Shown piece after piece: positions 5,550 to 55,625 of a stretch of 64,000 nt of DNA; position 1 is the first letter of the stretch; the number at the start of each line of letters is the position of its first letter. This DNA comes from Loxodes magnus (Eukaryota; Ciliophora; Karyorelictea; Loxodida; Loxodidae), in contig CAMPDV010000241.1 of the NCBI GenBank assembly GCA_946699065.1, positions 365,005-429,004 on the forward strand, given 5' to 3'. The position numbers and the translations under genes are program-made. The notes under the pieces are model-generated. The model was given only the letters and a program-made list of their open reading frames with translations. It was not told the origin of the DNA and made no database searches.

Positions 5550-5556
5550 ATTAAAT

Positions 5557-27983: not shown

Positions 27984-27999
27984 ATAATTGCAGGATAAT
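27984..27999 (+). repeat. Target-site duplication, left, of 314-bp element copy 1
   Basis: ATAATTGCAGGATAAT, exactly repeated at 28314-28329. Confidence 0.85.
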
Positions 28000-28313
28000 T
28001 AATTAATTTCAACTAAAAAAGTTTTTTGGACCGGAAACTCCTTTCCGATTGCACGACCCGACGCTCTCTTTTTATGGAATAACGGGGATATCCTGTTGTG
28101 CTCCAGGCACAGCTGTTAGGGAGCTCTATCGCTATGAGCACCCAGGCTTCAAGCCCCTACCAAGAGCGGATAATCTCAAAGATAGCGTTCCCTTCAGAAA
28201 ATGACTCTGACCAGGGACTTTCTCAACGACAGGAAAGGAACTTGTTCCTACCCATAAAACCAGAAAGCGTTGTCACGAAGGTCATTCTAAGCTCCCACCA
28301 TCTTTCAATTATT
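28000..28313 (-). mobile_element. 314-bp SINE-like structured-RNA element, copy 1
   Basis: A GC-richer insert bounded by a 16-bp direct repeat. On the minus strand it begins RATAAYTGAAAGATGGTGG, ends TTTTTTAGTTGAAATTAATTA, and is exactly 314 bp, as are copies 2 and 3. It has no terminal inverted repeats and no poly-A, so a retroposed SINE-like element with an AT tail is the best fit. Hairpins: CGGAAA-GGAG-TTTCCG near the 3' end, GTGC-CTGGA-GCAC, GGAAC-AA-GTTCC, and long-range AATGAC/GTCATT. The short + strand ORF at 28098-28328 is incidental. Copy 1 is much closer to copy 3 than to copy 2. Confidence 0.8.
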
Positions 28314-28329
28314 ATAATTGCAGGATAAT
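28314..28329 (+). repeat. Target-site duplication, right, of 314-bp element copy 1
   Basis: Second copy of ATAATTGCAGGATAAT. Confidence 0.85.
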
Positions 28330-29260
28330 ATAAACTCTTTTATTTGATAGTAAATTTCTCTTAATTGGTAAAACATTAATAGACATAAAATTTTTAAATT
28401 GACAACATTACTAAAAAGTTCTTCAATTAAAATCATTTTAAACTAATTTTCTTCATAAATATGAATTTTATAAATAGATAACTACTAAAATAAATTAAAT
28501 GCAATTTCCAATAAATTATCTAAGAAACTTATAATAATTTTTATTAGTTTAAAAAGTAGAACTTCTTTATAAACATAACTATCTTTAATAATTTTTATAG
28601 AAGATTCATACAATTCATTTCACATTTATATTTTACCTTTAGTATAATAAAGCTAATACTAATTTTAAAACCCAACTAAATAGACTACCTTCATTTTATT
28701 AATTTAATTTTTTTAAGGAAAATTAAGAAGATTAAATGTTCATGTTTATTTATGAAATCACTTCTTCTTGGCTAGTGTTCCTTTAGCGGGTGCAGCTTCC
28801 TTCTTAGGTGCCCTTTATTTTTATATTAATAAATTTAAAAATAAAAAAAGATTTTCTTAATAGTGTATGGAATTAAATATACAATAAGGAAAATATTTAA
28901 AATAATTAATTTAATATTATTTCTTACATTCAAATATATAATGCTTAATAGATTAATTGTAATTTGGTACTTAATATTATAAAATTAAATATTCTATATA
29001 TATTCCTTTTTAAACTAGGTATCTATATTAAGCTTTACTATTTCAGTTTATCTAATTATTATAGAAGTAAGTTATTTACAAAGGCGGTAGTTTATGCGAT
29101 TGTTATGTATATAAAATAGTAAAGTGATAATTAATATTAGAGAGTGTTGTAGCATTTTAAATTATTATTTAAATAATAGAAAAATAGATATTGTTATTAG
29201 CATTTATAGCTTTATTATATAAGAGAGATTATTTAAAGCATTCAGAAAAATAGTTTATAA
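28330..29260. other. AT-rich spacer with a short basic coding-like fragment
   Basis: At 28757-28813 the minus strand reads APKKEAAPAKGTLAKKK followed by TGA. This resembles the basic N-terminus of ribosomal protein eS25, in which a Trp follows the Lys run, but no further similarity follows. It may be a gene fragment or a terminal exon of a basic protein. The rest is featureless AT sequence. Confidence 0.3.
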
Positions 29261-29333
29261 GCCGGTTTAGCTCAGTCGGTAGAGCGCCAGCCTTTTAAGC
29301 TGGTGGTCAAGGGTTCAAGTCCCTTAGTCGGCG
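29261..29333 (+). tRNA. tRNA-Lys (anticodon UUU)
   Basis: A complete 73-nt cloverleaf. Acceptor GCCGGTT pairs with AGTCGGC (two G-U) with discriminator G; D arm GCTC-AGTCGGTA-GAGC; anticodon arm CCAGC-CTTTTAA-GCTGG with UUU at 34-36; T arm AAGGG-TTCAAGT-CCCTT. No intron, no encoded CCA, and TTTTTT directly follows (29334-29339) as Pol III terminator. A and B boxes are canonical, in contrast with the satellite modules. Confidence 0.97.
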
Positions 29334-29639
29334 TTTTTTCTAGAAATCTTATATTAAATTATGATTTAAACATTATAAAAACTAGTTTTCCTTAAATAAA
29401 CTAAAGATATTAAACTTATTACTATTTAAGTAAAAGATTACTATTAATTACTAATTAATAGTAATAGTAAACTTATTTATAATTCATTTCACTAAGCAAA
29501 TACTTTAAATATATTCCATATATTTATTAGTAAGGTTAAACTTTGGCATAGAGAATTAAAATATTTTATTTTCATATCGCTAGCAAGATTTATTAATTAG
29601 TTAATTAGAATTTAATATGTTTTTACCATATTTCAAATA

Positions 29640-31990
29640 GGCAATAAAAAAGGTTTTGCTACTTCCATCTAAATAATCTTGATTCAATTTTCTTTAATCA
29701 CTTTCTTCTTCGCTTGCTCACTAACCAAATTGTTCAAATAACTCTCCTATTTGTTAATCATTTTAATCTAAAATTTAATTTCTTCTGTGAAGCAACTTTA
29801 AATGAAAATGTTTAATTCTTTAGACAATTTATTAAAGTTATCTTAGAGTAGGGAAGTTAAGATTATTGTAGATTTGGTTGTAAATTATAAGTTCTAGTGA
29901 ATCCTAATTCCTAAAATCTTTAAATTATTCTATTAAATATTGTAGAGCTTCACATTAAGAAATATTCTAATAGGTATCTTATTCTCCGCAAAAGCAAATT
30001 TCAGATTGTTTTATTTAAAGTTTCTTTATTTCAAATCTTACTAAAAATTGTAACTAAAGGTCCTTAATTTGTAAATTGATACTTTTTCTCGAATCATTGT
30101 TTTGTTTAATATTGTGTAAGTATAAGTTGGAAATTTCTGTTAATAAATGCAATTATCATAATATTCAAAATAAATGAGTATAGTAGGCATTGCACTCATC
30201 CTTCCTATTTCATCTTAATAAAATGTTTATTCTATTTTATTTCAAATTTTGTTTAGATATTATTTGCTGCTACTAGTATCTTTAAGGTAAATTTGAAAAT
30301 GTTAAGCTGTTTATATAAAATTATTGAAATATTTAAGTTACTGTTTTTTATTGTTAAAAAGAAATGATACATCAAAGTTGGGATCCATTTAAGATTAATT
30401 ATAAAGCTTTAAATAGAATTTGAAATACCTCATTTCAATATTATATTCAAAAGGTAACAAATTCAATTCAATAAACCAAGATTCATTAAAGTAGAATTAG
30501 GACTTTGTAAAGCACATCTTGCTACTTTTTTTTAGCTAGTGATTATATCATGTCTTATTCTTTACACCCCAAAGAATAAGCCAAGAAATAATTTCTATCC
30601 CCTACTCTAGCTTTAATAGTATAAACGTTAGAAAAGTCTATCTAAAGTTCTAAGGAGTAATAATTTGGTATTTAGATAATTTTTAAACAGATCCTGTTAT
30701 TTATTTTTTGTACTTTGTCGAAACTTTTTAGCAATGATCTTTATAGTTTTCATTTTCATTAATAGCATATCTTAGATAGGCAACTTTTTTTGATATTCAA
30801 ATTTACTAATTATTTAATTTTAAATTAAAGTCTAAAATTTTCATGCTTTTAGTTCTTACTCCTAAAGCAGATATATTGACATTTTTAAGCATTTATAGTC
30901 AATTTAACTCAACCAAATGCTTCACATGTAGCCTAAATTAATAAGTTCATACTATCTTCATCAGACAGTAATAACAGATCATCTATCCAAACTTTGGAAA
31001 CAAATAAAAGGCCACTAATTTTAAAACAAAGTTTTTTTTAAGTTTCCAAATATCTATTGCAATTTAAATGAAAAGAACTGGACCATATAAACTTCCTTCT
31101 AAAACCCATTGATGTAATTCAAGTTTTTCGATAATGTTCCGTTTAAAAGAAATCTAACGCTTAGATGAGAATAAAATGATTTGAGACATTTTATTAGAGC
31201 AAGAGGGAACTTAATTCTACGTAAATATCTAAATAGAAAATTTTTGCTAATGAAATAGAACATTTTTTCTACATCTATAAGAGTAGCAAAAGGATGTTTT
31301 CCTCCTCCTCATCTTCTGTGTAAGTCAATAATTGCTTATAAAGTTCAAACTTGATGTAATTTTTATCACTTCTTTAAAAATCCTTGCTATGAAGGGAATA
31401 TGATCTTACGCTCATAAATTTATCCATAACTTCTTTAAGTGATTATTTTATCATATATATTGAGAATAATGCTTATAAGAGCAATTGGTCTTCAATTCTT
31501 TCGATTACTCTTTGATCCTCTTTTATAAATTGGAAGGATTCTAACTTATTTGAGTTAATTTGAAATTGTATATTTTCTTAATATATTATTCATAAACTTT
31601 TTAAAGTACTTCATAAAATTCATTATAGCATATTTGATGAGTTCGGCTTTGATACCATCTGATTCTGATTCTTTATTATTAGCCAATTTCCTGATAGCTT
31701 ATTTGCATTCTTGTAAGCTTTTAAAATAAATTCTTACTAATAAGGAGCTTTATGTTATTTCACAAAATCAAAATTTTAAAAAATTTTATAGATTTTTATG
31801 TTAAAGTTCTTCAACTCTTCTTCCTCAATATTAGTATGCTTATTAAAAACATTATCTTCTCAGTTATTTACAAATTAAGAAACAATTTCAAAATTCATAT
31901 ACATATTGTTTCTTTTTCTTGGATTTAAGAGTCTTCTTGCTTATTAAAAGCTTTTAGAAGATCGTTAGTTCATTATTTCTCTATCTTCTT
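29640..31990 (-). pseudogene. Non-LTR (LINE) reverse transcriptase, decayed
   Basis: Minus-strand RT motifs appear in order. KLANNKESESDGIKAELIKY and RILPIYKRGSKSNRKN are followed by [TGA]RPIALISIILNIYDKII (the NWRPI motif, Trp = TGA at 31492-31494). Next come EGSLYGPVLFI and the catalytic block VWIDDLLLLSDE, whose two Asp lie near 30978-30983, then INAQKCQ. The spacing fits an RVT_1 domain of a LINE that copies its own RNA by target-primed synthesis. Frames change between motifs, so it is not intact. The 3' end is not defined. No endonuclease domain was recognised. A source of RT would explain the 314-bp elements, though no link in sequence was found. Confidence 0.7.
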
Positions 31991-32260
31991 TGGCTTTTAA
32001 CTAAACAGTTGAAAAGTTCCATTTCTTTACAGCCTTATCATCAATTCCCAATACAATTCATTTCTGGTCACTTGATATCGCTACAGATAGTATAAGATTC
32101 ATACGTCCCTACAAATTATTCTTTAAATAACCATTTGTAACTTCCCATATCTTTATTGTAGTATCATAACTTCCCGATACGATAAAGTTTTTTTGGAGGA
32201 AAAGGCAAAAGATCATACAGAAATCCAATGTACCTACATAATTTGATCTGAATATAAAGA
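31991..32260 (-). pseudogene. WD40-repeat protein fragment
   Basis: The minus strand reads one WD40 blade and the start of the next: HWISV[TGA]SFAFSS, then, after a 1-nt shift, FIVSGSYDTTIKIWEV and SVAISSDQK[TGA]IVLGIDDKAVKKWNF. The two UGAs sit where WD40 repeats commonly have Trp (VWS) and a hydrophobic/Trp residue, and an in-frame TAG reads as Gln. WD40 propellers are protein-interaction scaffolds with 4-8 blades. Only about two are present, abutting the LINE, so this is a gene fragment, possibly truncated by the LINE insertion. Confidence 0.6.
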
Positions 32261-33059
32261 ATTACCTTTAGTTTAGTCCTATTTTATTATTTTTGAAAGT
32301 TTAAAAAAACATAAGTTAGATAAGATTTCATATTTAGAAAGAAGAATCAGAATTCTACCTAAGGAGTCATTTCGTTATCTTAAAAATTTTCGTAAATAAA
32401 TACTTTTATTAAATTGTATTTCTTTAGTTTCCATATTAATTTAATAGCTTACTTTAATAATTGCTCAATTATAGTAACTCATATTATTAATTGAAAATGA
32501 TTTACCAGACTTAATTTAATTGAAATAAAGTATTTAAATAATTAATTTACTAATTATACTTACAAATGAATTATCATTAAACCATAATTTTAAATTTAAT
32601 CCTTTTAATTAATCTAAATATAGAAATAATATTTTAACTCTTATTTTCTTTATATTTTCACTATAATTTTCATATTAACAAAATTAAATAAAATTAATTA
32701 TCATTGTGATTTTTAATTTTTGTTATAAGCAAAACTGTTTTAAAATTAGTTTAAATAGATATATGATTTGTTTATTTTGAAATAAGCGATTTTTATATAA
32801 ATTAAATAGAATAATATTCTATACAATAATCAATGAAAAAGTTACTAACATTAATTACATAAAAAATGCTTTAATATTAAATAAAATATACTTAATAGTA
32901 AATATTTTATAATCTATTTTTAGTAAACTAATTTTAGGAAAAAACTAATACTTAAAATTAATTTTTTAGTTATAGCTTAAATTATTTACTGCTAAGTTTT
33001 AATTTTATTAATTATTCGAAGCTTTTACTTTTTTTATTTCATTGGTAATTAATTATAAT
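32261..33059. other. AT-rich spacer
   Basis: About 0.8 kb of A/T-rich sequence with no RNA, repeat or protein motif recognised. Confidence 0.5.
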
Positions 33060-33710
33060 ATCCTATTGAATAGCTCTCTGCTTCTTATAATTGCACTCTT
33101 CGAGTTACTTCTTCCAAAATACAACATTCAAAGAAAATATGTTCAATTATTTGTTGTATTTTGTTCTTGAAATAATTAATTCCGAAGCAAGCCGACAGAT
33201 ATTATCAACTTGTCTCTTTAATTCTGTAGATGAGGATTTAATTCTTATCTCGATAATCCGAAATCAGTAATCTTAACTCTCAATTCGGAATCCAACAAAG
33301 TGTTTTTACTCTTCATATCCCAGAAATATTTTTCTAATGTATATAATAACTTAATATTATTTACACACTTATTTATTAACGTAATTTCCAAGATTTTTCC
33401 TTAGGAATATGTAATAAATGTAGTAAACTTTAAGATAATAATTCCATTACTAATATAGGAAAGATTAACAATATCCATACAACATTATTATATTCGAATG
33501 CCTTATTAAATAAGTCAACGCTATCTCTATACTCCAAATACTGTATTGCTAATTAATTTATATTTTGATTATGCAACTTTTTATCGTAAACTCTATACTC
33601 CCTTATATAAATCCCTTGCAAATAATTCCAAACAAATCTAAACTTATTCTTCTAATTTTTTAGACTTTGGAGTCTTAAACAATGTAACTTTAATTGAAGT
33701 CTAAACTATT
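33060..33710 (-). pseudogene. Protein kinase (TKL/Ser-Thr type), decayed
   Basis: Kinase subdomains can be followed on the minus strand in order: HSNIIMLYGYCQSF (alphaC-beta4 region), ILVMELLSQSLLHLLHIPKE (hinge and alphaD), SVQIILSYYIHQKNI (alphaE), DMKSKNTLLDSELRVKITDF (catalytic loop and beta8) and GLSRQE (DFG motif). The HRD triad reads FWD and the frame shifts at least twice, including between the alphaE helix and the catalytic loop. The activation-segment APE is degraded (ASEL). The ATP-binding Gly loop and Lys were not found. The K-S-x-N and DFGLSR forms suggest a TKL-like kinase. As written it cannot be an active enzyme. Confidence 0.65.
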
Positions 33711-34164
33711 TATAAATTTAATTAAATTTAAACTTTCAAAAAAATAATATAGCAGAACACAAAAATAAGAATTACTAAAATTTATATTTATTTAGGATTT
33801 AGAAATAATAATCATTTGTTTATTTAAATTTTTATAAATATTTATATTAAAAATAATTTATAGTACAACAAAAAATAAATAAAATTCATTATTTAAAAAT
33901 TATTTAAGTTTATTAAAAACAGATTAGGAAATAAAAAAGAAATTTACTTTAATATTAATATTAATTTTATTATTAAACCTAAATGAGAAAAAAATAATTT
34001 TTATAGCAGTAAATTTTTTTTAATTAAAGCATTAAATTTCTAGTTAATCTTTTATAAAGAATACAAATTTTATTTAAAAATATAAATTTAAACTTTTTTT
34101 ATTATTATTTTTAATTATAAATAAATGTGTGAGAGTAATCTTTAATTAGGGAAACATTTCCTCT

Positions 34165-34713
34165 TCAAATTAAAGACGATAAAGTTTTATTGTTCTTTGG
34201 TAAATTGTTCATGTCTTCATCTGAGTCAATTTCAAACTGAGATGATTCTTCTTTCTCTTCAAAATGCTTGCAGCATTGTTCTTACATCTCTTGTTAATTT
34301 TCTCCAGTTTATCTAAATAAATTCTAAGACCATTGTTGTCCTTATAATTCTATTTATTTTATTGCTATTAATTACCATAATCCTATTTGATTAGTGTCTC
34401 AATTGAATCAATTAATGCTAGCTACTTTCTGTAAATACCTCCAAAGCAGTTACAATATAGCTTCTTGATGTTCAAAATTCTCTTCAATACTGCTCAATCT
34501 CTCTTTTTCACTTTAAGCATTACCTCCATATTGTCCAGTCTTTTGGCAACAATAGCAACGTTTTATTAAGGATTTGAAGTCAAAATTTTTTTTTAATTAT
34601 AATTTTTCTCTCAATTTCCATATTATCTATTTGAGGTTAGATTTTTATTTGGTAATATAGCTTCTTCCTTAATTTTCTATGTATACACTTCTTGTAATCA
34701 AATTTCCTTTCAT
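34165..34713 (-). CDS. Small protein with variant zinc knuckle (182 aa)
   Basis: ATG at 34713 and TGA at 34165-34167 share one uninterrupted frame. A basic N-terminus (MKGNLITRSVYIENQGRSY) leads to a knuckle CYCCQKTGQYGGNA, in which the usual His is Tyr and the last Cys is missing. Then come a helical Gln/Glu-rich region and an acidic C-terminus, FEIDSDEDMNNLPKNN. In-frame TGAs at SIN[W]FN[W]DTNQ read as Trp; TGG is also used (LLWRYL). Flanks are AT-rich on both sides. It may be a diverged relative of families A/B. Function unknown, RNA binding possible. Confidence 0.5.
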
Positions 34714-35144
34714 ATAGTCTTACTCAACTTCCTGGAAATATTAAATAATAATCATTTGATTTTAAAAATTAAAAATTTATATAATTAAATTAAAAAAATA
34801 ATATAATCTAAATATTAAAAATTTTATATCCATTTTAGAAGAAAATCAAAGAATATTTAATATTTAAACAAAAAAGGTAGAATGATTATAAAAACCAAAC
34901 TAATAAATAAAGAAATAACATTCTTTATTTAAAAAAGTCAATAAATAATAAATAAAGGCAAATATAAAAAAATGATAGTTAGGTATATAATCATAAGACT
35001 AAATTCACAAATAAATAATTAATATATGAGATATGAGATATCTCAAATTTATAAGCAAATTAAATAAAAAAACTTAACTAGAAGACTATTTTATGCAAAA
35101 ATTTATAATAATAATAATAGGATAAAATAAGTTTAGCAATTATT
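34714..35144. other. AT-rich spacer
   Basis: About 430 bp with A-runs and no recognisable feature. Confidence 0.5.
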
Positions 35145-36020
35145 GAGGATTTTCACCTCTTTATGCTGGCATCAATTTGCTCATGTGTTAAAAATAAAAT
35201 TTTAAAAGTCTCTCTTCATCTATCCTCCCATTGCTCATGTAATTTCCAATTCTATCTTCATTTCTAATCAGATTTTTTTTGTTGATTTATCCTAATTCAT
35301 TTAAATATAATCTCTCTCTGATTTGTCTCTACTTCATTTATTTTCTTCATCTGCTGTACTTGTATTATTCTTTATTTATTCCAATACTACGTCTTGAAAT
35401 TTTGGAATTTCTTGCAGCGTCTTCACAAGTGTTTTGTCGAATTGCAGTAGTAACAATTCTTCATTACTTTTTTTGGTTTAACCCTTGTCTTCATGTTGGT
35501 CTCTTCAATCATCATTGATCTCCCCTTTGTTCGTCTAGGTTCTTTTCTAATTTTTCCATTATGTTACTTGGATCAGATTGTTTCTTGAATTAATTTTAGG
35601 ATTAGTTATTCTAGTCATAGGATATGCTTCAGAAAGCGCTTAGTTCTCTTTCTTAGAAAATAAGTCTGGATTCTATTCCTTCCGCTAGGCTGAGATGCTC
35701 CATAAGCTTCTCGTTATCCTTCCTCAGTTTCCTAACCTCTGTTGGAGGTTTAGCACCACTTTGATGAGCTACTCCATGCTAATCTGACCAGAAGGATTAA
35801 ATTCTGACACCTCCTGGTGAAGAGCAGACTTCATCTGCTTTCTTGACTTTCCTCCGATGTAGGACTTATTACGTGAATTGCAAGCAAGGATTTCTTCTGC
35901 TCGTCATATCTGCTTGAATTTCAGGTTATTAAGATTAAGAAGAAGGTTAAGAAAAAGACGACTGGCCAAGATTGGATTCAGGTTTACTCTCCAACTTTTT
36001 GGATGTGGTGCAGAAACCTC
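35145..36020 (-). pseudogene. Gag-like zinc-knuckle coiled-coil protein, family A, copy 2
   Basis: The minus strand shows the family-A blocks: ALHQEVSEFNPSGQISMEQL, then TEVRKLRKDNEKLMEHL..ESRLIFQEREL, ALSEAYPMTRITNPKINSRN, the knuckle CYYCNSTKHL[TGA]RRC (CX2CX4HX4C with Trp as TGA) and the tail KFQNFKTQYWNKQ, where Trp is TGG (35381-35383). The tail continues as a long charged helix. Two frame changes separate the blocks; one lies at the same place as in copy 3, suggesting common descent. The 3' end has a small hairpin GAGG-TGAAAAT-CCTC (35145-35159, minus sense). Probably nucleic-acid-binding ORF1 of a retroelement; no RT is attached. Confidence 0.55.
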
Positions 36021-36644
36021 TTCTGAATCCTTCTCATTTTTAATTTATCAAAAAATCCATAAAATATAAAAATAAACAGAAGGTAGTTGAGAATATATTT
36101 TAGTCGCAAACTTTTTAACTACCGTTTCTAAAGTAAAAACTGATTCATAAAAATGAGATCGAGCAGATGCTTATAAAAATTCAGACAAAGAATTGCTTCT
36201 ATAATAAATTCCCTGTGAAATATATTTTCTTGAAAAAAATTACTGACCTTAATATAATGTAAGCAGAAGTTAATTAGCGAAAAGAAAACTGGAATAAATG
36301 CAAAAAATTTTGATAATTAAAAAAATAATTTCAGAATCTAGATAAGTATATAATCAATCATGTTCTTATAGTCAGTTATTTCAAAATAATCTAATTAATG
36401 TTTCAAAATAGAAATTATTTTCTATTTTATAAGTTTAAAAAGATTGATATTTTTAATTCTAAAACATTTTCACGTCTTTTGATTTTAGTTTTTAAAGCAT
36501 CAGGAAAAAATTAAATTTTTATGCATTTTATTTACTAAAGAATTTGGACAAATATCGTTTTTTATTAGCACATATTTATATTATATATAACTTCTAGATA
36601 AGTTAGGTCATAAGTATATAATAATAGGATATAAACTTTATTTT
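36021..36644. other. AT-rich stretch, no supported gene
   Basis: A + strand reading starting near 36153 (MRSSRCLQKF...) is possible but has no motif or paralogue. Otherwise nothing distinctive. Confidence 0.35.
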
Positions 36645-37260
36645 TCATCTAATTTAGTATAAATTAAGATAAAAAGATCTTTATTATTTGAAAGAATATC
36701 CTATGCTAGTATTCGAGAAAAAATTTAATAATTCTTGATCATTACTTAATCTATGTGCTTGCTCTAATATCATTTCTACTGTCATTTAAAAGAAATCTTC
36801 CACATTTTATCCTTTTTTTGCTGATGTTTTAAAAAAGGAATTTTTCGCTGCTATGCTAATTCAAAACCTTCTTCATAAGAAACTTCTCTATCATATCTTT
36901 TATCTATCTTATTTCCAACTAAAATAAAGCAAGTTTGAGGTTTTACTCATTTTCTAATATTTAAATATTAATCCTGTATTAATTGAAAGGATTTATAATT
37001 AGAAATATCATAAAGTAAAGTAACTGTTACATACGTTAATAGTACCTTCTTGAAATAGATTAATATCTTTAAGCTCCTTTTGAGTTTAAAATTCTTAGTA
37101 AAACTTTTGTTTATTAAATCTTCATCAAACACTGCTTAAAATAAATGCCAACTGAAATGTAATCTTTATTATTTTCGAATTCTAATTTTTCGAATCTCCT
37201 CATCAAACTTTTAGATCCTGCATTACTTAATTCATTTAAAGAAAGTTGAAATAAAGGAGC
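36645..37260 (-). pseudogene. Rab-family small GTPase, decayed
   Basis: The minus strand follows a Rab from P-loop to C-terminus. LSNAGSKSLMRRF is a damaged GxxxxGKS loop. YISVGIYFK is the switch I/beta2 region. LRILNSKGAQRYQSISRRYY has lost WDTAG. LLYDISNYKSFQLIQD and ILVGNKIDKRYDREVSYEEG carry the intact NKxD guanine motif. KTSAKKGQNVEDFFQMTVEM contains the SAK motif. Trp of the IRK-W-VKP helix is TGA (36947-36949). A 1-nt shift in a T6 run precedes KTSAKKG. No C-terminal prenylation Cys is visible. The key P-loop and switch II residues are lost, so this is a pseudogene of a vesicle-trafficking GTPase. Confidence 0.75.
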
Positions 37261-37554
37261 ATTTTATTATATAAATAAAAGTAAAGAAATGTAATAACTA
37301 TTTCTTTTTTCACTTTAATTCTTTAGAGTTAATAATCAATTTGTTTCATAATGTTATAGTCTTTGATCTATCTTAAAAGCTAAACCTAGCATATATATAG
37401 CATATTAATTATTGCTTTAAACTTAATATCTGATAAGTCTAAGTTGACATGAATATTAGTATTTTCTGTTAATAGTATGAGGATACTTTTCTTTAATCCT
37501 ATAAATAATGAATACTAAGTATTAATAGTAGAAGATTAATAATTTGATTTATAC

Positions 37555-37571
37555 AATAATAATATAATAAT
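37555..37571 (+). repeat. Target-site duplication, left, of 314-bp element copy 2
   Basis: AATAATAATATAATAAT, repeated exactly at 37886-37902. Confidence 0.7.
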
Positions 37572-37885
37572 TAAAAAGATGGTGGAAGCTGAGATTGACC
37601 TTCTGAATCATACTTTCTGTTTTTATGGTTAGGAACAAGTTCCTTTCCTGTCGCTGAGAAAGTCCCTGGTCAAAGTCAACCTTTGCAAGGGAACGCCTTC
37701 CTTTTGATTATCCACTCCTAGTAGGGGCTTGAAGCCTGGCTGCCCATAGCGATGGAGCTCCCTGGCAGCTGCTTTTCGAAAGTAACAGGATATCCCCGTT
37801 ATCCCATGAAGAGAGTGTTGGGGTCGTTAAACTGCAAGAAGTTGCAGTCCAAAACTCTTTAAGTTTAAAATTAAAAAAAAATTAT
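37572..37885 (-). mobile_element. 314-bp SINE-like structured-RNA element, copy 2 (divergent)
   Basis: Same length (314 bp) and orientation as copies 1 and 3 but clearly diverged. Hairpins are kept by paired changes: CTGCAA-GAAG-TTGCAG replaces CGGAAA-GGAG-TTTCCG, GCTTTTCGAAAGT replaces GTGCCTGGAGCAC, and ATTGAC/GTCAA replaces AATGAC/GTCATT. The central hairpin GGCT-TGA-AGCC and the segment CGGGGATATCC are unchanged. The 17-bp flanking duplication marks an independent insertion. Confidence 0.8.
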
Positions 37886-37902
37886 AATAATAATATAATA
37901 AT
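37886..37902 (+). repeat. Target-site duplication, right, of 314-bp element copy 2
   Basis: Second copy of AATAATAATATAATAAT. Low complexity, so weaker alone than that of copy 1, but it fits the common 314-bp length. Confidence 0.7.
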
Positions 37903-38616
37903 CTACTTTTTATTCAGTTATATGATAATTATAATTAAGTTGTAATAAATTACTATAAACATGTATATTCAAAATTTGTTCTTTATTTAAAATTACATTT
38001 TCCAAAATAATTTAAATACAAAAGCAATTAAAATATCTTTAATACCCTTATATTTCCCTTGCTTATTAAGCTTTTTTTGCTTTATATCTACTTATATATT
38101 AGCATTTTTTAATAAACCTTTATTTAGATAAACATACTATTTTAGTTAGTAAAAAAGATTTAAAACTTATATTAATTAGTAGTTAATTGTATAATATTAG
38201 AATTATAAATAAATAACTATTAAATAAAAAATATCTAAAAAGCTAATTAAGTAGTAATTAATATCAAGCTATCAAGATATTTAGTTTTAAATTTATTTGC
38301 TATAAATGCATTTTGGAAATTAAAACACTATTTATGGAAAATTGGATTCAGTTATTATTTATGAGTAGACTACAAAAGTTTATATCTTAAAGAAATTAAT
38401 TATATATAAGTTATTAAAGCAACCTATATTAAAAGGTATTATTTTATTTAGAAATTGTATAAATATATAGAAATATAGTAGAAATGTTTGCAAATGGAGA
38501 TATAAATAGAATGTAGTTGTAAAAATGTGGAAAAATGCATAACATAAATAGCCTAATCTTTAAAGTGACTTCACCTTTATTTGATTTTGCACTATTAGTT
38601 TATGAAGAGATTTATC
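37903..38616. other. AT-rich spacer
   Basis: No supported gene. Near 38567-38583 is AAAGTGACTTCACCTTT, which can form a hairpin and recurs downstream of the family-B and family-A copies at 47.6 and 39.35 kb. Confidence 0.4.
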
Positions 38617-39289
38617 TCAATAATAATTTTCATCTTCGGAATAGACTTGTATTATATCTTTATTTCCCTTATTTCTGCTGAGACTCGTCTTCATAAGCTT
38701 TCCTACGTCACATCCTTATTATATTTTGTTACAGTTTCCTGCTTCCATTATGAGATATTGTTTGTATAATTTATTGTTATTTCCTTCTATATAATTTTGC
38801 TTAATTTGTTCAATATATTCTAAATATTTTATTTCAAGTTTTTGTTCTTCTATTTTTCTTTCCAAAAATCTGCAAAAGTTTCTTATCTTGTGACCTTGCT
38901 TCCTGCATTATCAGCACCTTATTTTAATTATTCTATATATAAATTAAAGCTTACTATGTAACTTCTTTCTCTGTCTCTACATCCATAGGATCATAGTTCA
39001 TCTTATTTTACGTTTCCTAGTTCTTTTCAGAATTTATTCTTTGTAATTTTTATTCAGTATGCTGGATTATTGTATAATTGGCTATCAGAAGGTCTTCTTG
39101 CAATATCTTATTTTAATCAATTGCTTTCTTTTTTCAGTTAATCAATTTCTAATCTAGAAACACAGATTTTATTTGAAAGTTCTTAAACTACTGATATAAT
39201 TTAAGATTTTCGTTTTTTTGAAGATTGATTTATATTTCTTATTGTATTTTATTGGTCTAGTTTAGAAAGCTTTATTTTTTTGAGGCCAT
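38617..39289 (-). CDS. Zinc-knuckle protein, family B, copy 2 (one frameshift)
   Basis: ATG at 39289 opens MASKKQSFLNQTNKIQQEIQ, followed by a charged helix with HTEQKLQRINSEKN and MNYDPMDVETEKE. After a 1-nt shift near 38930 the frame gives a knuckle CWQCRKQGHKIRNFC, whose second and third residues are TGA (38911-38913) and TAA (38908-38910), read as Trp and Gln. A coiled coil, LERKIEEQKLEIKYLEYIEQ, and an acidic tail, VYSEDENYY, precede the TGA at 38617, which is also kept in the 47.7-kb copy. Likely an RNA-binding Gag-like protein. The H-to-C spacing is one residue longer than canonical. Decay or an indel error is possible. Confidence 0.55.
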
Positions 39290-39339
39290 TTCATATATAT
39301 AGTATAATAAAACTTAAAATAATTTATTAAAGTTACTTC

Positions 39340-40200
39340 ACCTTTATTAGATTAGTCACATATTGACTTATAAAAATCTTGATAATTATCTTAAAACTCA
39401 TTTAAATCGCTCAATTCTACTGTAGATTCGTATTTTCAAATAATTTATTGATAGTTTTTAATCTATCCTTCTTTAACATTGATATTTTAATCCAATCTAA
39501 ATACTTTCCAAACTTTTACTTGATTCTTCCTTTTGAGCATCTATTATTTGCTAGTAATTAACTTAATCTTAAATTTTTCTAAATAGACCACCTTCAGATT
39601 TATAATAAATCTTGGTTAGCTATTTTCATAATTTTTAATTTTTGTTTTTTCTAATTTTGGTATCTCCTGCAGGATTTTTAGCCTTCTTCAGAATTAGTAC
39701 AAAATTGGTCTTCTTTTTATTTAATGATTAATAGTTAATTTTTTTTGTTTAATTAATATTTTAATTGATTATTCAATTTCATCGGATCATATATGGCTTT
39801 ATTCATAATTATTCACGGTTTATTCGATCGAGATTTCATATTTCTTATATTTAAATTTTTAGGCTAGAAGAGTTTTTTGACATTTATAACTGTAAAAGTT
39901 GCTTCTTTCAATTATAGAAGTTAATAAATATTTTAATATTTTTAATATAATCTTGATATCCTCAATCCCAATTACTCTTGTTACAGTTTCATCTTTCATT
40001 TCTTCTTTCTTTTTTTCTTTTTCTATTCTAATAATTCTAGTCTTCTCACATAAGTTTCTTGTAAAAATATTTTTATTTATAAATATAAATATCCAAAAAA
40101 CTTAGAAAAGGGTTTTATAACTTCTTAATCATATAATATAAGGTATCTAGTCATAATTCTCAATCTTTTACGGTTAGTCAATCCCTTATAATAGAATAGT
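39340..40200 (-). pseudogene. Family A-like Gag remnant, copy 4
   Basis: Lies upstream of the family-B copy on the same strand, exactly as family A precedes family B at 47.7-49.4 kb. The bases CTGCAGGAGATACCAAAATTAG match the post-knuckle CTGCAAGAAATTCCAAAATT of the 35-kb copy, and the preceding knuckle is degraded (LYQF[TGA]RRLK). A Lys/Gln-rich helix follows. It ends with AAAGGTGAAGTAACTTT, similar to the 3' ends at 38.57 and 47.61 kb. Poorly conserved; called mainly on order and short matches. Confidence 0.35.
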
Positions 40201-40699
40201 ATATACATTTAAAACGTAATTGAATGAATCATACTCTCCACACATAAAATAGATAAATGACGATCGTAAAGATAATTTCGAAAATTATAGGATTGGATTC
40301 TAAGTTTGCATAAGCTGCTAAATTTTTGTCTAAATTATTTGTTCTATGTATTGTATGTAATTAGTGGAAATTGATTAAAGATTACTAAACTGTTTAGTAT
40401 ATATTTTAGCTGTTTTCATTCTCTTAAAATTTAAATATCTGCATTATAGAAATAATGAGTATTTTGTCTCTTATATATTTAGTAAATTTTTTTTATTTGC
40501 ATTAATCTAGGAATTCTACAGATCAATACTATTAAGGTCTGATAATTGTTAAACTTTATCTTAGTATTTAAATTATTTTTCCAGTTGATAATGAAAAGAG
40601 AGCTTATTGCCAATCTTTGGAAATAAATGCTTTCTTTTTTCATTTTATAATATAATTTAATTTAAAAACTTTATTGCCATAATGTGTTTGAAAGGTAAC
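40201..40699. other. AT-rich spacer
   Basis: No supported gene, RNA or repeat. Confidence 0.4.
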
Positions 40700-41862
40700 A
40701 GTATAAATCTAAATAGCATGACGCGTTATAAGTTGAAATTACTGCTTAAAATGTTTTTCTTGAAATAATTCTCATACTTGATTAAATTCTATTCAAAACA
40801 CCATTTATTCCTTTCTGAATACTTTCGGGTAGTTCTCCTTCATATTCTGCTTTAGTCAGTGTAAAAAGTTTGCATTTATAGCTTTAGAATGTCAAGGAGT
40901 CACATTCTTATATCTCATTTGCTAAAAAGCAGTTTTTTATTGTAGCTATATACTTCAACGAGACTTCTCTACAAAGGGGGTTCAAATTCTTCTTTTGATG
41001 TAGAATTACACCTAAATAAGTTACTTGTTCTTTTTAAATAATAATAATATACTTAAATGTTGAGAGTTTTAGCTTTCCCTGGACTTTCAACCAGGAACCT
41101 GCTACCATTATTTTTACGTGGATGAATACCACAACCTTTTTTTTATATGTGGTAGGTCACCACTAATAGTAACTTAATTTCTTGATAAAATTTTTTACTT
41201 TAGATTCAATTTTCAGTTATTCAGAGTTTATTTAAACTTCTTCATGTTCTTCGTTATTTTCTTATCCTTAGTTACTTTCAGGTTCAATATTGTAGTAAAA
41301 TATGGTATGTTGAAATGCGGTAAAAACAATTTTTAATCGATTTTTCTGATTTTGCTTCTAAATTTTTTTTCCAATTTCTCTATTCGATTTTGTAAATTTT
41401 TAAGTTTTTCCTTCTTATTATTTTTCTTATTCAATTAATTTAGTTTAGTCTTTTTCTATAACCATATTTGTTAATGAATAACTATCGATTGTAATTATTC
41501 ATAAAATTATTGTTCTGTTATTAAGTTATTTTATATTAACTGACAACGTAGTATTAATAACTCATTATTTTAGCGTCAATACTGTTCATAAATTCTCTTA
41601 TTTTTTCTCCTTAATTGTATATTATTCTTCATACTTTTAGATTAATTTTAACGTTTGGTCTAATTTATTTTATATTTTAGCTCAATTTCATTTTAAGTTT
41701 TTTCTATCTTTGCAGTTCCGATCATAACTTTACCTTCTGATGAGGAACTCGATTCCTCTTGTTGTTATTGCTTTTTCTCTATTTCTTTTGCTGCTTTTCT
41801 TCTTAATTTCTAAGTTAATTTTTTTAGAGACGAACAGATTATTCTATTTTTTTAATTAACAT
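40700..41862 (-). CDS. Coiled-coil protein with uncertain C-terminal part, frameshifted
   Basis: ATG at 41862 opens MLIKKIEQSVRLQKNQLRNQ. A 1-nt shift later, a long charged helix runs through KEIEKKQQQQEESSSSEGKV, KNKRIYEQY[TGA]RQNNELL and LKNLQNRIEKLEKKFRSKI. Downstream on the same strand, PRKNNGSRFLVESPGKAKTL and, after a C5 homopolymer shift, LTKAEYEGELPESIQKGING look coding. VESPGKAKTL resembles the Toprim start of type IA topoisomerases, but later Toprim motifs are missing, so I do not assign that function. It may be two genes. The coiled-coil half is the better supported. Confidence 0.4.
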
Positions 41863-42626
41863 TAAAAAATCTTTATTATAAGATGAAATAAAATTACTAT
41901 CTTTATATAAATTAAAACTAGTTTTTTTATTTATTTATAGTTTTTGCTTTTACCTTTAATATCCTAAACTTTAAATAATTCTTTCATTTTTAGATATCAA
42001 GATTTTATGTTAATCAAAGATAGAATAAAAGTTTTTTTTATATAATGTAGAATTATTTTTTAGAAGCATTAAATCAATTATCGTTACATCATCGTTAATA
42101 GGTTTGTCACGATTTAGTTATTCATTTTTATTTAATTTTCTAATCAATTTATTTATCTAAATTTAGCCACCAAATGAAGGCCCGAAAGATTCTTCAAATT
42201 AAAATACTTCTTATTAAAAAATTATTCTAGAGTTTTGAGATAAATATCCCATTTTTCTAAAATAAAATCACAATAAATATTAGAAAAATAAGCTTAAGAA
42301 ACCCGTCATTCAAATCTTGGGTAAATTCGACGAGTCTCTTTTGAGTTTATACTTCCTTATCCTTGGTTGTATCTAGTACAAGATTACTCTCAATGCAGTA
42401 TACATTGAACCAGATTAACTAGAAGTTCTTAGGCTGTTGTTGACATCCATATTTTATATAATATAACAAAATTAAATTCTCTATTTACTGTCCAAGAAAC
42501 CATTTGAAAAATGCTTAAAAAGATTTTTCTATTATAAAATAAAGTAAAACTTATTATTTAAAAACTTATAATTTTACTTCTTTATCTATTTAATTAACTT
42601 AATTAATAACTAAATTATTAAAAAAG
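41863..42626. other. AT-rich spacer between divergent ORFs
   Basis: Separates the minus-strand coiled-coil ORF (start 41862) from the + ORF at 42627. It probably holds both promoters. No defined element recognised. Confidence 0.4.
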
Positions 42627-43420
42627 ATGGAAGAGATATAGAATTCCCTAGATTTTAATAGGGACTCTTCTTTAATTAATTTCAAAGAAGTTGCAAATTC
42701 ATATAAAAAGCACAGACTGGAGCACAAAAACCTCCTAACAAGAGAAAATGAGTTAGTACAAATTAAATAAGTAAACTTAATAATGAATGTATTAAGGTAA
42801 CTACTAAGATATTATATTCAAAAACCGGAAAATTAATTCATAAGCGTTCCACTAAAACTGCTTAGAAATTCTCTTCAATTTGTGCATTAATTGTAGTATT
42901 TAATGAAAGTGAAACTAACCTAAAAATATATAAACAGTTTAGCCGCTTAAAATAATACCACCAAAAATATGAAACTATTACCCAAGAAATCTTTTAAAAA
43001 ATAAGATAATCTACACATTAGATCTAAAGATATGGCTTCAAATCCTAATTAAAATTCAAATAAAATAATCCTTTTATGGTACCAAAAAATATAAGCATAA
43101 GATTTATTTTTGAATAAACTAATTAATAATTCTATTAAGTTTCAAATAATGAAAGTAGTTAAAAAAATAATATTACTAATCCTAATAATTCACATAATCA
43201 CTATTTATCTGATTTTTAAAGCACAAATTTATTTAAACTGACTTTATTATGTTCTTAGAAGTTTTCCTATGAATTAAGATTGATTTAAGAATTTTTCTTT
43301 AGTATATATTAACTATATTAATCTATAAAATATTATGTTTAATATTTAAATATTTATAACAAAGAAAATTAGAGATTTATTAATTATAAAAATTAAATTC
43401 ATCAGCATACTATTTAATGA
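42627..43420 (+). CDS. Gln/Asn-rich protein of unknown function, one frameshift
   Basis: ATG at 42627 gives MEEIQNSLDFNRDSSLINFK and a helical stretch to LIMNVL. After a 1-nt shift near 42800 the frame continues as KVTTKILYSKTGKLIHKRST, then FNESETNLKIYKQFSRLKQY and an Asn/Gln-rich tail (NITNPNNSHNHYLSD) to TGA at 43418. The first half is well mixed and clearly protein-like. No domain recognised. A short ORF, MTTKDEKQTQLSLRNRAFYS (43417-43620), starts on the same bases as this stop. The shift could be a short intron, a sequencing indel or real damage. Confidence 0.45.
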
Positions 43421-43620
43421 CAACCAAAGATGAAAAATAAACTTAATTATCATTAAGAAATAGGGCTTTTTACTCATCTTCTTATAATCTGATTTTTGGA
43501 TAAACGAAATGTTTATAATCTACGATATTACTTGATATGCTTAGCTTTTTATACTTAAACTAATTTTTGGATTTAGGCTTTTAATTAGTATGTTTAAATC
43601 TTCTATAATTTTTAAATTGA

Positions 43621-44655
43621 GTAGCTGAGTGAATAAAACTAATGAGATATTTTATTTATTAATTAATATTATAAGATCTGTTTTAAATTATTAACGAACA
43701 CTGATATAAGTAATATTTTAAACTAAGATAAATTATATTAGGAAATAAAAAATGATGAAGAGTTACATCTAAAATATCTAAATTCTAAAATAAAGTTGTC
43801 TCTATAGTTTAAATATTTTTAAGAAAATTATTTTATTTTATTTATACTTATCCAACTCTTGTAAATTATCATATCTTTTTTATTTTTATATTTAATTATA
43901 TTTTGTACTATTAAACGCTGAAATTAAATAAAAATTATATAAGTTCAAAATAATTTAAATTAAAATGCTATATTTAACTTAACCTAAAAATATTTAATTT
44001 TACTATTTTTCTCATTTTTCAATTATTTTTTAATGTCTAATAATCCTTTTCAAATTTAAATATTTTCTTAAACCAAAAGCTTTATCATTTAATTTAGTTA
44101 TATTTTTAGTATATTTACTTTATTTTTCTTTTAATTTAATATGAAAATTATAGATTATATACACTTTATTTTATTATGAAATTATTTTAATTTTGCTATT
44201 CTTTTAGATAGCCTAACTTAATTATAGAACTTCACTATTTAGCAATTTAATTAAATTAAATTTATCTTATTTTTAATTATTTTATTTATTTTTATCTTCA
44301 ACTTCTCCTTTAGATAAACTATTCTCATACTTATTAGTGATTTGATTTTTCAATCTCCTATTTTTTCCAATTTTAATTTAATAATTTTAATTATTTATAT
44401 TGGATATGGTGCTTTAACACACTTTAATTGAACTTAGATTTTAAAATATTTTTGTTGATCTTTTTTAATTATTTCTATTTCAACTTAAACTTAAACTTAA
44501 ATTATTTACTTATATTTTAATATTTTCTTTATTTCTCTTACTCAATTGTTTTCTTAATTTATTTTCTGTAACTTAATTCAAAATCTTAAAATTTGTTTAA
44601 ATTAGATTTATTTTCTTAATTTCTGTCTTAGCAATTTCTCAAAAGTATAATTATA
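43621..44655. other. AT-rich spacer
   Basis: About 1 kb of T-rich sequence. No supported feature. Confidence 0.45.
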
Positions 44656-45345
44656 ATGCTTGTAATGATGCATCTTGCTAATATTTTACTTTTCCCTCTT
44701 TTATACTTTTGCTTTGCATTAAAAAACTATAAATTTTTCAATTTTACATACTAAATTTAAATTAAACTTTCAAACTTTTCAAATTAAGTAAAATCTTTAA
44801 TAAAATTTGTTCAAAGCAAAGACAGAATGAAGCAATGGTTTAATAAGTAAAGCTAAAAGCTTAAAACAGATTTAATGAAAATGAATACTAACTTAAAATT
44901 ATTAGAAGAAGGAACTATAATAAAATTTTACTTAGAAAGCTAAAACAAAATTCATAAAAGATTTAGGAGTTTTATACTGCAAAATTGCTGAAAGGTTAAC
45001 ACTTGTTAAGAAGAGAACTTTTAAATATTTATTCAACTATTTTAAAAAAAAGATGCAGCAATAATTTCAAAAGATATAGCATAGTCTTTTAAAAATGGAG
45101 AGCTAATAGTAGAAAAAATTATCTTATGCTGCTTATAAATTAGATAATATGAAAATAAAGGATTTCTAAATTTAGCGAAGTTAATTTTGTATAAATTAAG
45201 CTAAAAAATCCAAAAATTTTAAAGATTATTTTCTTTTGATAGATTTGAGAACAAATTCTAAATTTTAAAATTTATTATTTTATTTATTAAGATTTATTTT
45301 ATCTTATAATATAAAAAAAACTTTTTTTAAACAAGAAATACTTGA
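44656..45345 (+). CDS. Small putative secreted or membrane-anchored protein (229 aa), unknown
   Basis: ATG at 44656 and TGA at 45343 share one frame. The N-terminus MLVMMHLANILLFPLLYFCF is hydrophobic and would serve as a signal peptide or anchor. An internal in-frame ATG at 44827 (MKQWFNKQSQKLKTDLMKMN) is the alternative start. The body reads IIKFYLESQNKIHKRFRSFI, DAAIISKDIAQSFKNGELIV and ends RNT. One in-frame TGA (NC[W]KVN) reads as Trp. No domain recognised. The AT-rich flanks and balanced residue use support coding. Confidence 0.45.
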
Positions 45346-46929
45346 CTAAGGAATCTAAAATATGTAAAGTAATCATAAAGATAATTTAAATATTCTTATA
45401 ATAAGTAAATTAGTAGGTATTTTTCATAAAAATATCATTATTATTTTGGCTCTCAATTTATAAATTTAGATTTATCTTTCGTTCTTATCAAAATTAATGT
45501 ATTTCATTTTCTTATTTCCTTATATTAGCTGGTTTATTAAAAAATTTAGAAATCCCTGTTAAATTACACAGATATTAAGATTAATTTATTAAATTTTTGG
45601 TTTTACGTCTTTTCAGAAAAATATTTTGGATTTCTAAATTTTTTGAAAGCTAATGACATCCATTAATTTATGTAAAATAACATAAATTTAACTAATAAAA
45701 ACTGTAAAATAAATAGGACTGAAATATCCAACCAAATAAAAGCACAAAATTAGTTTATCTAAGTATGAATTAATTTGAATTAGTAAAAGTAGAAATTACT
45801 TAAAAATAAGTTAAATAATTTTAAATTAAATTACAGAGAAAATATTTTAAATCAATATATGCAAGATAAAATATTGATATCAGAGGTTATATTTTAAATA
45901 TAAAAATGTTTATTTATAAAATTGATGTTATATATTAAAAAAAATAAAAGTAACATGAATAAATTGAATAAATAAATATAAATTTACTTTTTATAGCTTT
46001 CAAATTAAAAAATATTGCTTAAATAAAAAAATTTAAAATATAAAAGTTTATCTGCTTTAAATTTTATAGGAATATTCAGAAAAAGCATTTCCTAAGCAAA
46101 GATTTATTTCAATTATATTCTTTAAATTTAGTTAAGGAGTTTTAATCTTCTGCTGATTTTTTCGCTAAATTTTTCGTTCACAGCAATTAAATAATTTATA
46201 AGTAAAATTTTCTTAAGCTACTAAATATTTAAGGATATAAAAATTAAATTGAATAATGATCTAAGTAAATTAAATTTTAGTAATAATATTAAATTAGCTT
46301 ATTAAGTAATTTTAATTAATTTTTACTTTATTAATTATTTTATTTAGTGAATGCTCTTTTAAAAGTGGAAATAATTGAAATAAGTTTCTTATTCTTAAAC
46401 AAATGTATGTTTAATTAAATGGTATTCAATTATCAATAATTCTAAGATGCTAGAATTAGTTTTGATTTTAATTAATGGATGAGAAAAAAGATAAAAAGAG
46501 GAGTTAATATATATTTATATTAACCGACATTAGATTTATAATTGATGAAAAAATAATAAATGAATAATAATTTAATAATATATTATAAGTAAATATATTA
46601 ATCTTTACATAACATTTTATGAAAGACTACTTATTATCATGTTTATTGTAAAATATCATAATTATTAAATTTAAATAAAATAATTAATTTAAAAACTAAA
46701 TAAAAATTAAATATTTTTAGTGTTTCTATGCTTAGAGTTTTAAATAGATTTTAATTTTTAAAAACTAAATATTATAAGAACTAAAATGTAAAAATGTTTA
46801 GTAAATAAAATAATTATTAATTATTTTCTAGCATTTTAATAGTAGCTAATTTTAGAATTTTGTTCCTTATTAAAATAATTAATTTTTAAATATATTTAAT
46901 ATTTTAGTACTTATTATATTTATTTTCTT
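45346..46929. other. AT-rich stretch, no supported gene
   Basis: About 1.6 kb. A hydrophobic + strand reading around 45440-45700 exists but lacks any motif. No RNA or repeat was recognised before the target-site duplication at 46930. Confidence 0.4.
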
Positions 46930-46942
46930 ATTAAAAATTAAA
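46930..46942 (+). repeat. Target-site duplication, left, of 314-bp element copy 3
   Basis: ATTAAAAATTAAA, repeated at 47257-47269. Confidence 0.65.
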
Positions 46943-47256
46943 GATAACTGAAAAGATGGTGGGAGCTGAGAATGACCTTTGTGACAACATTTTCTGGTTT
47001 TATGGCTAGGAATAAGTTCCTTTCCTGTCGCTGAGAAAGTCCCTGGTCACAGTCATTTTCTGAAGGGAACACTTTCTTTGAGATTATCCGCTCTTGGTAG
47101 GGGCTTGAAGCCTGGCTGCTCATAGCGATGGAGCTCCCTAACAGCTGTGCCTGGAGCACAACAGGATATCCCCGTTATTCCATAAAAAGAGAGCGTCGGG
47201 TCGTGCAATCGGAAAGGAGTTTCCGGTCCAAAAACTTTTTTAGTTGAAATTAATTA
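46943..47256 (-). mobile_element. 314-bp SINE-like structured-RNA element, copy 3
   Basis: Bounded by a 13-bp duplication and exactly 314 bp. (By local convention the RNA-like sense is written left to right along the window for copies 2 and 3 and right to left for copy 1; strand labels here are nominal.) It starts GATAACTGAAAAGATGGTGG and ends AGTTGAAATTAATTA, the same 3' end as copy 1. The sequence is close to copy 1, with a wobble change GGAAT/GTTCC in the small hairpin. The 73-codon ORF across it is incidental. Confidence 0.8.
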
Positions 47257-47269
47257 ATTAAAAATTAAA
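47257..47269 (+). repeat. Target-site duplication, right, of 314-bp element copy 3
   Basis: Second copy of ATTAAAAATTAAA. AT-rich, so convincing mainly through the identical element length. Confidence 0.65.
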
Positions 47270-47667
47270 ATAAGGAAACTTAAATTTTATTTAAATAAAT
47301 TTTAAATTTACTAAATATTCATAGAATGTAACATTTATTAATATATTTACCACTTTCATTTATCTATCAAAAATATATAAACTATTTTTGTATTATAAAA
47401 TATTTTTTGTAGTTTCATTAATTAAGTAAATATAGTTTTAAATGCATAGGCATTTTAATTATAATAGCAATACTAAAGTTAAAATTCATAAATTAATTAA
47501 TCATTTTTATTTATTTATTATTATTATTAATATTAAATAAAAAAGGTAAAAAGTTCTATAAAGCTTAACTTTTTAAAAATATTTTTTTTATAACATAACA
47601 TAATTTATTAAAGTGATTTATCTTTGTTTGGTTTGCCATATATTAGTTTATGAAGTAGAGTTTTTTC

Positions 47668-48331
47668 TCAATAATAATTTTCTTCTTCGGAATAGACTTG
47701 TATTATGTCTTGATTTCCCTTTACTTCTGCTGAGAATTGTCTTCATAAGCTTTCCTATGTCAAATCCTTATTATCTTTTGTTCCATTTTCTTGATTAATA
47801 TTTGAGATATTGCTCGTATGATTTATTGTTCTTCCTTCTATACAATTTGGCTTATTTTGTTCAATATATTCTATATAGTTTGTTTTAAGTTTTACACTCT
47901 TCTTTTTTTTTAATTAAAATTTCCAAAATTTTCTTACCTTGTGAGCTCGCTTTTTTTATCTTGTTATCGGTCTTATTATATATAAATTAAAGCTTAATTT
48001 ATTTCTTCTCTCTCTGTCTTTACATCCATAGGATCATAATTCATCTTATTTTCAATTATTAGTTCTTTTCAGAATTTATTCTTTGTAATCTTTATTCAGT
48101 ATGCTAGATTATTAAGTATGATTGGCTATCAGAAGGTCTACTTGCAATATCTTATTTTTTATCATTGTTTTATTTTTTCAGTTAATCAATTTCTAAATTA
48201 GAACACAAATTTTATTTGAAAATTCTTAAACTACTGATATAATTTAAGATTTTCGTTTTTTGAAGATTGATTTATATTTCTTATTGTATTTTATTGGTTT
48301 AGTTTAGAAGATGTTATTTTTTAGGTGCCAT
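47668..48331 (-). pseudogene. Zinc-knuckle protein, family B, copy 3 (knuckle lost)
   Basis: ATG at 48331 opens MAPKKQHLLNQTNKIQQEIQ, nearly the same as copy 2, and MNYDPMDVKTEREE follows. The region that encodes the knuckle in copy 2 aligns at the DNA level but its Cys codons have been lost, and frames shift. The C-terminal part and the TGA after ENYY (47668-47670) are conserved. It lies directly downstream of family-A copy 3 on the same strand. Confidence 0.5.
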
Positions 48332-48420
48332 TTTATATTTATTTAATTATAATATTTTGTTTAAAATAATATTATATATTACCTAATAATAATAATATAT
48401 AAATTTAAATTTTCAATTAT

Positions 48421-55551: not shown

Positions 55552-55625
55552 GCCTCCGTAGCTCAATAGGTTAGAGCGTTTGGCTGTTAACCAAAAGGTC
55601 GGTGGTTCAAGTCCACCCGGTGGCG
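55552..55625 (+). tRNA. tRNA-Asn (anticodon GUU)
   Basis: A 74-nt cloverleaf. Acceptor GCCTCCG/CGGTGGC with discriminator G; D arm GCTC-AATAGGTTA-GAGC; anticodon arm TTTGG-CTGTTAA-CCAAA with GUU; T arm GGTGG-TTCAAGT-CCACC. Directly followed by TTTTTT. No intron or encoded CCA. Confidence 0.96.

Follow-up and report, generated by a model that had tools for sequence, protein, structure and literature searches.

What kind of element has entered a 64,000-nucleotide stretch of ciliate DNA three times, each time as a short, GC-rich block enclosed by a different direct repeat? The stretch, hereafter the window, is assigned to Loxodes magnus and corresponds to contig C241 (CAMPDV010000241.1), positions 365005-429004, of an assembly of 705,730,643 bases in 7,843 contigs, which was the scope of the genome-wide work. 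An initial annotation had read the three blocks as a family resembling short interspersed nuclear elements (SINEs), spread by retroposition of a structured non-coding RNA distinct from tRNA, 5S and 7SL RNA. This reading is supported by the duplications and ends of the copies, by paired changes in their putative fold and by comparison with Rfam. With a probability of about 0.8, the element is a SINE-like, non-autonomous retroposon mobilised by a long interspersed nuclear element (LINE), its body being a structured RNA of unrecognised kind.

The three insertions are located at 28000..28313 (copy 1, minus strand), 37572..37885 (copy 2, plus strand) and 46943..47256 (copy 3, plus strand), and the window contains no fourth copy of the element. 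Their coordinates, lengths and flanking direct repeats proved exact, and target-site duplications of 16, 17 and 13 bp were confirmed: ATAATTGCAGGATAAT at 27984..27999 and 28314..28329 for copy 1, the low-complexity AATAATAATATAATAAT at 37555..37571 and 37886..37902 for copy 2, and ATTAAAAATTAAA at 46930..46942 and 47257..47269 for copy 3. At random window sites of the same spacing, a repeat of at least 13 bp was met at 2/4,000 and one of at least 16 bp at 0/4,000. The sequences directly beside the three copies are mutually unrelated. As had been claimed, the copies are richer in GC than their surroundings (45, 43 and 45% for copies 1, 2 and 3, vs 17-21% in the 2 kb flank). All three do measure exactly 314 bp, but their shared size is a coincidence, as the copies differ in additional 5' sequence, in internal gaps and in the length of the tail. 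Copies 1 and 3 are 94.9% identical, copies 2 and 3 79.0%, and copies 1 and 2 78.0%; substitutions are clustered between copies 2 and 3 (P 0.0005) and unclustered between copies 1 and 3 (P 0.48).

These copies belong to a large family. A core probe of 21 bases, TGTCGCTGAGAAAGTCCCTGG, searched through the whole assembly with an exact match required, yielded 1,169 + 1,132 = 2,301 matches and 0 for the reversed control, a count which omits core-mutated copies (copy 1 of the window, for example) and includes duplicated segments repeatedly. A first look had returned 770 candidates with copy 3 as query and 2,119 with copy 2, 40 of each being scored. From 60 loci found with one or other of these queries, together with window copy 1, a set of 39 insertions was obtained by removing the loci which share flank and duplication with another. 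The element is non-coding and ~305 bp long. Two main subfamilies, ~80% alike, are each tight around their consensus: subfamily A (24 of the 39 insertions; window copies 1 and 3), with 4-9 substitutions per copy, and subfamily B (15 insertions; window copy 2), with 1-6. For the window copies, the substitutions number 9 in copy 1 and 6 in copy 3 (294 core columns each), and 6 in copy 2 (293 core columns). In the locus list, copies 2 and 3 are L031 and L001.

A sample chosen by the core only (40 of the first 41 listed places) consisted of 27 A and 13 B copies, both ends of the body being reached within 5 nt in 40/40. Their median divergence from consensus was 3.3% and 2.4%, respectively, an exact core biasing the sample towards younger copies; divergent outliers at 8-15% were L086, L087, L098 and L103. 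L086 and L087 have an identical flank, and four pairs of sampled copies have the same duplication, which leaves ~36 insertions. Loci L002-L006 are the copy-3 insertion itself, carried in duplicated segments. Of these five loci, L003, L005 and L006 lie within the first 2.2 kb of contigs C2314, C1354 and C975, so that the copy-3 segment is repeated near contig starts and is perhaps subtelomeric. In addition, ~3.0 kb of the window (43311-46313, GC 17%) is missing at the corresponding position of the paralogous L002 and L003, reflecting either a later insertion or a loss elsewhere.

The initial annotation had staked its reading on consistent ends and duplications among the genomic copies, and both were found. 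Copies of subfamily A usually start with ATAATTGAAAAGATGG and those of B with ATAATTAAAAAGATGG, with some variation, and the 3' end passes into (TTAA)n of variable length; in copy 3, this end (47236..47256, plus strand) comprises a T6 run followed by AGTTGAAATTAATTA, with which the (TTAA)n tail begins. Duplications of at least 10 bp flank 33/39 insertions (10-19 bp, 33 different sequences) and reach at least 13 bp in 25/39. When left flanks were mispaired with the right flanks of other loci, the same lengths were attained in 274/2,000 and 31/2,000 cases. The duplication starts with TTAA or ATTA in 16/33 insertions, matching the tail, which suggests pairing of the tail with a nicked target, the boundary between tail and duplication being ambiguous at these sites. 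A coding function was considered on either strand and rejected: differences are spread evenly across the codon phases, and indels disrupt the reading frame. Collectively, the varying length of the duplications, the completeness of the copies, the simple tail and the lack of coding sequence argue for retroposition in trans.

The mechanism would involve the LINE machinery (reverse transcriptase and endonuclease) published for this genome, acting in trans on the element RNA. The (UUAA)n end would anneal to a nicked AT-rich target and prime reverse transcription. The macronuclear assembly of Loxodes magnus, described as 706 Mbp with UGA as sole stop, has abundant tandem repeats and LINEs (PMC11441545). 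Two of these LINEs, rnd-1_family-27 and rnd-1_family-19, are the probable source of the partner machinery; they are autonomous, coding and 5-6 kb long (PMC11441545), unlike the non-autonomous, non-coding element of ~305 bp.

The evidence for structure is comparative. Among the stems which had been said to be kept by paired changes in the window copies, two were upheld. GTGC/GCAC, part of hairpin A (TGTGC/GCACA in copy 3, 47146..47160, plus strand; 37770-37784 in copy 2), retains all its pairs despite 7 substitutions (P 0.017), and CGGAAA/TTTCCG, part of hairpin B (ATCGGAA/TTCCGGT in copy 3, 47208..47227, plus strand; starting at 37831 in copy 2), does so despite 5 (P 0.019). The third, AATGAC/GTCATT (helix C), does not stand out, with 7/8 pairs kept (P 0.20), and is mutually exclusive with a hairpin around columns 97-113 in the consensus fold. 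A scan of all possible helices in the window copies gave 23 two-sided changes, a number attained by 3/300 shuffles, for which the mean was 11.8. Of the 83 pairs predicted by RNAalifold on these copies, 8 include a two-sided change, and 10 are broken or gapped in at least one copy; the alignment outperforms its column shuffles in folding (0/200, z -4.1), and its covariation bonus of -2.75 was bettered by at most 2/200. For the window copies, this evidence is suggestive of a conserved fold.

A clearer signal came from the subfamily consensuses, from which private mutations are removed. The fold predicted for the A and B consensuses contains 83 pairs, with 9 two-sided changes and 0 broken pairs. 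That paired changes preserve the structure is supported here, as 9 exceeds the value in all 400 column shuffles of two kinds (200 each; means 2.1 and 2.5, maxima 6 and 7). No shuffle attained the fold energy, whereas 1 and 2 of 200 attained the covariation bonus. In this test, a manual 2-nt shift had been applied to the alignment at helix D, and the structure was derived from the same two sequences, as was also the case for the shuffles. With the unshifted alignment, two-sided changes totalled 22, a figure that 6 and 5 of 500 shuffles attained. Relative to A, hairpin A has three two-sided changes in the B consensus (TGCTT/AAGCA) and hairpin B has two (ACTGCAA/TTGCAGT). Helix D, clear only between the subfamily consensuses, pairs CGCTCT (47089-47094) with AGAGCG (47190-47195) in copy 3 (47089..47195, plus strand) and reads CACTCC/GGAGTG in the B consensus, with two two-sided changes after the hand shift. 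A further helix, GGCTGCT/AGCAGCT in the A consensus and GGCTGCC/GGCAGCT in B, corresponds to 47114..47146 (plus strand) of copy 3, in which a private G to A change (AACAGCT) is found.

Old copies extend this comparison. In L086 and L098, hairpin A is UGUGU/ACACA, and its U state occurs in 212 copies genome-wide; among 100 such copies listed, 35 carry the matching A (U-A pair) and 65 a G (U-G wobble), as counted by eye. As young copies are only a few per cent off their consensus, this double change is taken as the mark of a putative third lineage, smaller and older. Another candidate, a third subfamily whose hairpin A would differ while the sequence on either side matched exactly, was rejected, the 20 matches resembling point-mutated A (18) or B (2) copies. 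L103 appears by eye to be an A/B mosaic, its 5' part resembling A and its 3' part B, which suggests template switching or recombination. As judged by column shuffles, not R-scape, covariation across the two main lineages and the small third one appears strong for two predicted hairpins and one predicted helix.

In an AT-rich genome, high GC such as that of the body typically marks a gene for a structured RNA. Rfam gave no match to the signal recognition particle RNA (7SL), RNase P/MRP, U-RNA or 5S RNA in the element, only chance matches being returned at gathering and permissive thresholds, and neither Rfam nor ARAGORN found a tRNA in it. A head derived from tRNA, 7SL or 5S RNA, a canonical trait of SINEs, is thus lacking according to Rfam and ARAGORN. 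In viral contigs and GTDB genomes, collections with few or no ciliates, exact element cores were absent. Runs of T4 occur inside the body of both subfamilies (six copies inspected; internal runs T4-T6), and T5 or longer precedes the tail in 22/24 copies of subfamily A. In other eukaryotes, polymerase III transcripts terminate at T runs; a polymerase III transcript of the element would therefore be expected to end before the tail, a rule from which this ciliate may differ. A structured host RNA other than tRNA, 7SL or 5S RNA probably gave rise to the body by retroposition.

Several observations weigh against a LINE-mobilised, structured retroposon. Six of the 39 insertions have repeats of 6-8 bp only, and in the core-only sample a repeat of at least 10 bp was found in 29/40 and a shorter one in 11/40. 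Polymerase III A and B boxes are at chance, the best B-like site (7/9) being equalled by 23-33% of shuffles, as judged with consensus boxes, from which ciliate boxes may differ. Single copies fold in an ordinary manner (z -0.62, -0.86 and -1.28; 24, 19 and 10/100 shuffles as stable), which is why the evidence for structure is comparative only. The best single helix was equalled by 17/300 shuffles for the window copies and by 44/500 for the unshifted consensus alignment, and L086 and L098 break 12/83 and 8/83 pairs, as expected of decaying insertions. No partner LINE was seen, reverse transcriptase being absent from the Pfam matches of the 14 open reading frames (ORFs) covered. A search of the window for a LINE 3' end with AGTTGAAATTAATTA, 3 mismatches allowed, gave 53 matches vs 40.9 expected, of which 2 were exact, both from the element itself. 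Finally, no source gene, that is a host gene free of a duplication, was seen, expression data not having been searched for one.

Could the copies instead be processed retropseudogenes, spawned passively by two paralogous host genes for structured RNAs, with no SINE master copies? Retropseudogenes of small host RNAs, such as U6 and 7SK, are known and likewise represent a structured RNA inserted into the genome with duplications. Such an origin would agree with the failure to find an internal promoter, with high GC and compensatory changes of the type that two functional RNA genes would show, and with the scatter of copies around a single consensus (4-9 substitutions in A, 1-6 in B). Unlike such retropseudogenes, the element forms a large family with a (TTAA)n tail and with subfamilies whose helices are compensated, and its 2,301 exact cores, mosaic copy and third lineage resemble an amplifying family. 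That no duplication-free host gene was seen, though none was sought in expression data, also counts against a passive origin, which we consider the less likely one.

An improbable alternative is that the element is a non-autonomous LINE derivative, in which two LINE ends were joined after internal deletion, the body being LINE untranslated sequence. Such forms exist, as illustrated by R2 hybrids (PMC3414825). A GC content of 43-45% against an AT-rich genomic background, and conservation of the fold along the entire body, are better suited to an RNA gene, and the tail of the other dispersed family present in the flanks is (TTTA)n, unlike that of the element. Far less credible is a remnant of RNase P or MRP RNA, prompted by GAAAGUCCCUGG, which we take to resemble the CR-I motif. 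GAAAGUCCCUGG is identical in all three window copies, in which AAGUCCCUG and UAGGGGCUU are able to pair; however, five Rfam scans of the element with E up to 5 or 10 returned no P or MRP match, the pairing strands lie ~55 nt apart in mid-molecule, unlike P4 of RNase P and MRP RNA, and an invariant pair brings no evidence of covariation. A DNA transposon, a miniature inverted-repeat transposable element or plain segmental duplication can practically be dismissed, as the duplications, instead of being of fixed length, span 10-19 bp and are distinct from one insertion to the next, no inverted ends are visible (5' AAAAGATGG, 3' (TTAA)n) and the flanks next to the three window copies are unrelated, even if 22/60 loci were indeed segmental duplicates (7 for A, 15 for B) and were removed.

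A SINE-like retroposon with a structured body is therefore preferred. The element is short, non-coding, dispersed and present in high copy number, with duplications of variable length, as LINE-type insertion typically leaves, and a simple-repeat 3' tail, all traits of SINEs. It works in a SINE-like manner, yet it fails as a member of the polymerase III SINE class, because A and B boxes are at chance. The heads of SINEs nearly always stem from tRNA, 7SL or 5S RNA, and Alu and B1 are SINEs of this type. With these SINEs the element has in common its small size, non-coding nature, high copy number, variable duplications, simple tail and young subfamilies. Unlike them, it has no such head, no A/B boxes above chance, internal T4-T6 runs and a folded, GC-rich body of unrecognised origin. 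SINEs derived from 7SL RNA have also been reported in hagfish (PMC7245038).

We tentatively suggest, at somewhat less than even odds, that the family represents a new SINE class, built on a folded RNA of ~300 nt outside the known heads, transcribed without A/B boxes and with a fold selected for retroposition. This RNA may be a ciliate ribonucleoprotein RNA or a self-contained RNA structure. Selection on the fold is proposed because lineages in which helices were replaced by paired changes still amplified; the fold would be needed for a step of the retroposition cycle or, alternatively, for whatever function the RNA that gave rise to the body had in the host. If true, the family would provide a direct test of whether folding is selected during retroposition, as well as a handle on an unfamiliar ciliate RNA. 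Extensive DNA elimination is reported as not detected in Loxodes (PMC11441545). If the host is Loxodes, the element would reside in the nucleus that is transcribed, and existing RNA-seq data could be searched for its RNA.

Among the literature matches listed for SINEs of ciliates, Tetrahymena and Loxodes, no earlier description of the element was found. The word "SINE" has 0 occurrences in the main texts on the Tetrahymena germline (PMC5182062) and Loxodes (PMC11441545), whose supplements could contain an unclassified-repeat entry. Putative SINEs of Paramecium have been annotated as multi-copy insertions without coding potential (PMC5405496). By description alone, they resemble the element in being multi-copy and non-coding in a ciliate, the description consulted mentioning neither a head nor a structure.

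Other repeats are present in the window. A second dispersed family has a common 60-bp end (GAGCTGCGCACC..., reverse strand) and a (TTTA)n tail, found in 27/121 sequences, including window 3842-3901 and loci L015, L030, L007 and L059; the bodies attached to this end differ, a pattern that might be that of a LINE and its SINEs. Its different tail suggests that two or more retroposition systems may exist side by side. A repeat of ~784 bp occurs downstream of copies 2 and 3, at 38539-39309 and 47590-48354, the two being 83% alike; the one ORF scanned in it had no Pfam match. A tandem array at 5316-22560 (497-bp unit, 34.7 copies, 99% matches) matched no credible RNA family. The Tetrahymena chromosome-breakage sequence is absent from the window with up to 2 mismatches allowed. 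The window also contains genes for tRNA-Lys(TTT) at 29261-29333 and tRNA-Asn(GTT) at 55552-55625. Towards its end, an ORF at 59768-61105, rich in TAA/TAG glutamine codons, encodes a ubiquitin-like domain above the Pfam cut-off and has a weak RING match below it, and is followed at 61215-64000 by a second tandem array, with a 28-bp unit, which reaches the window end.

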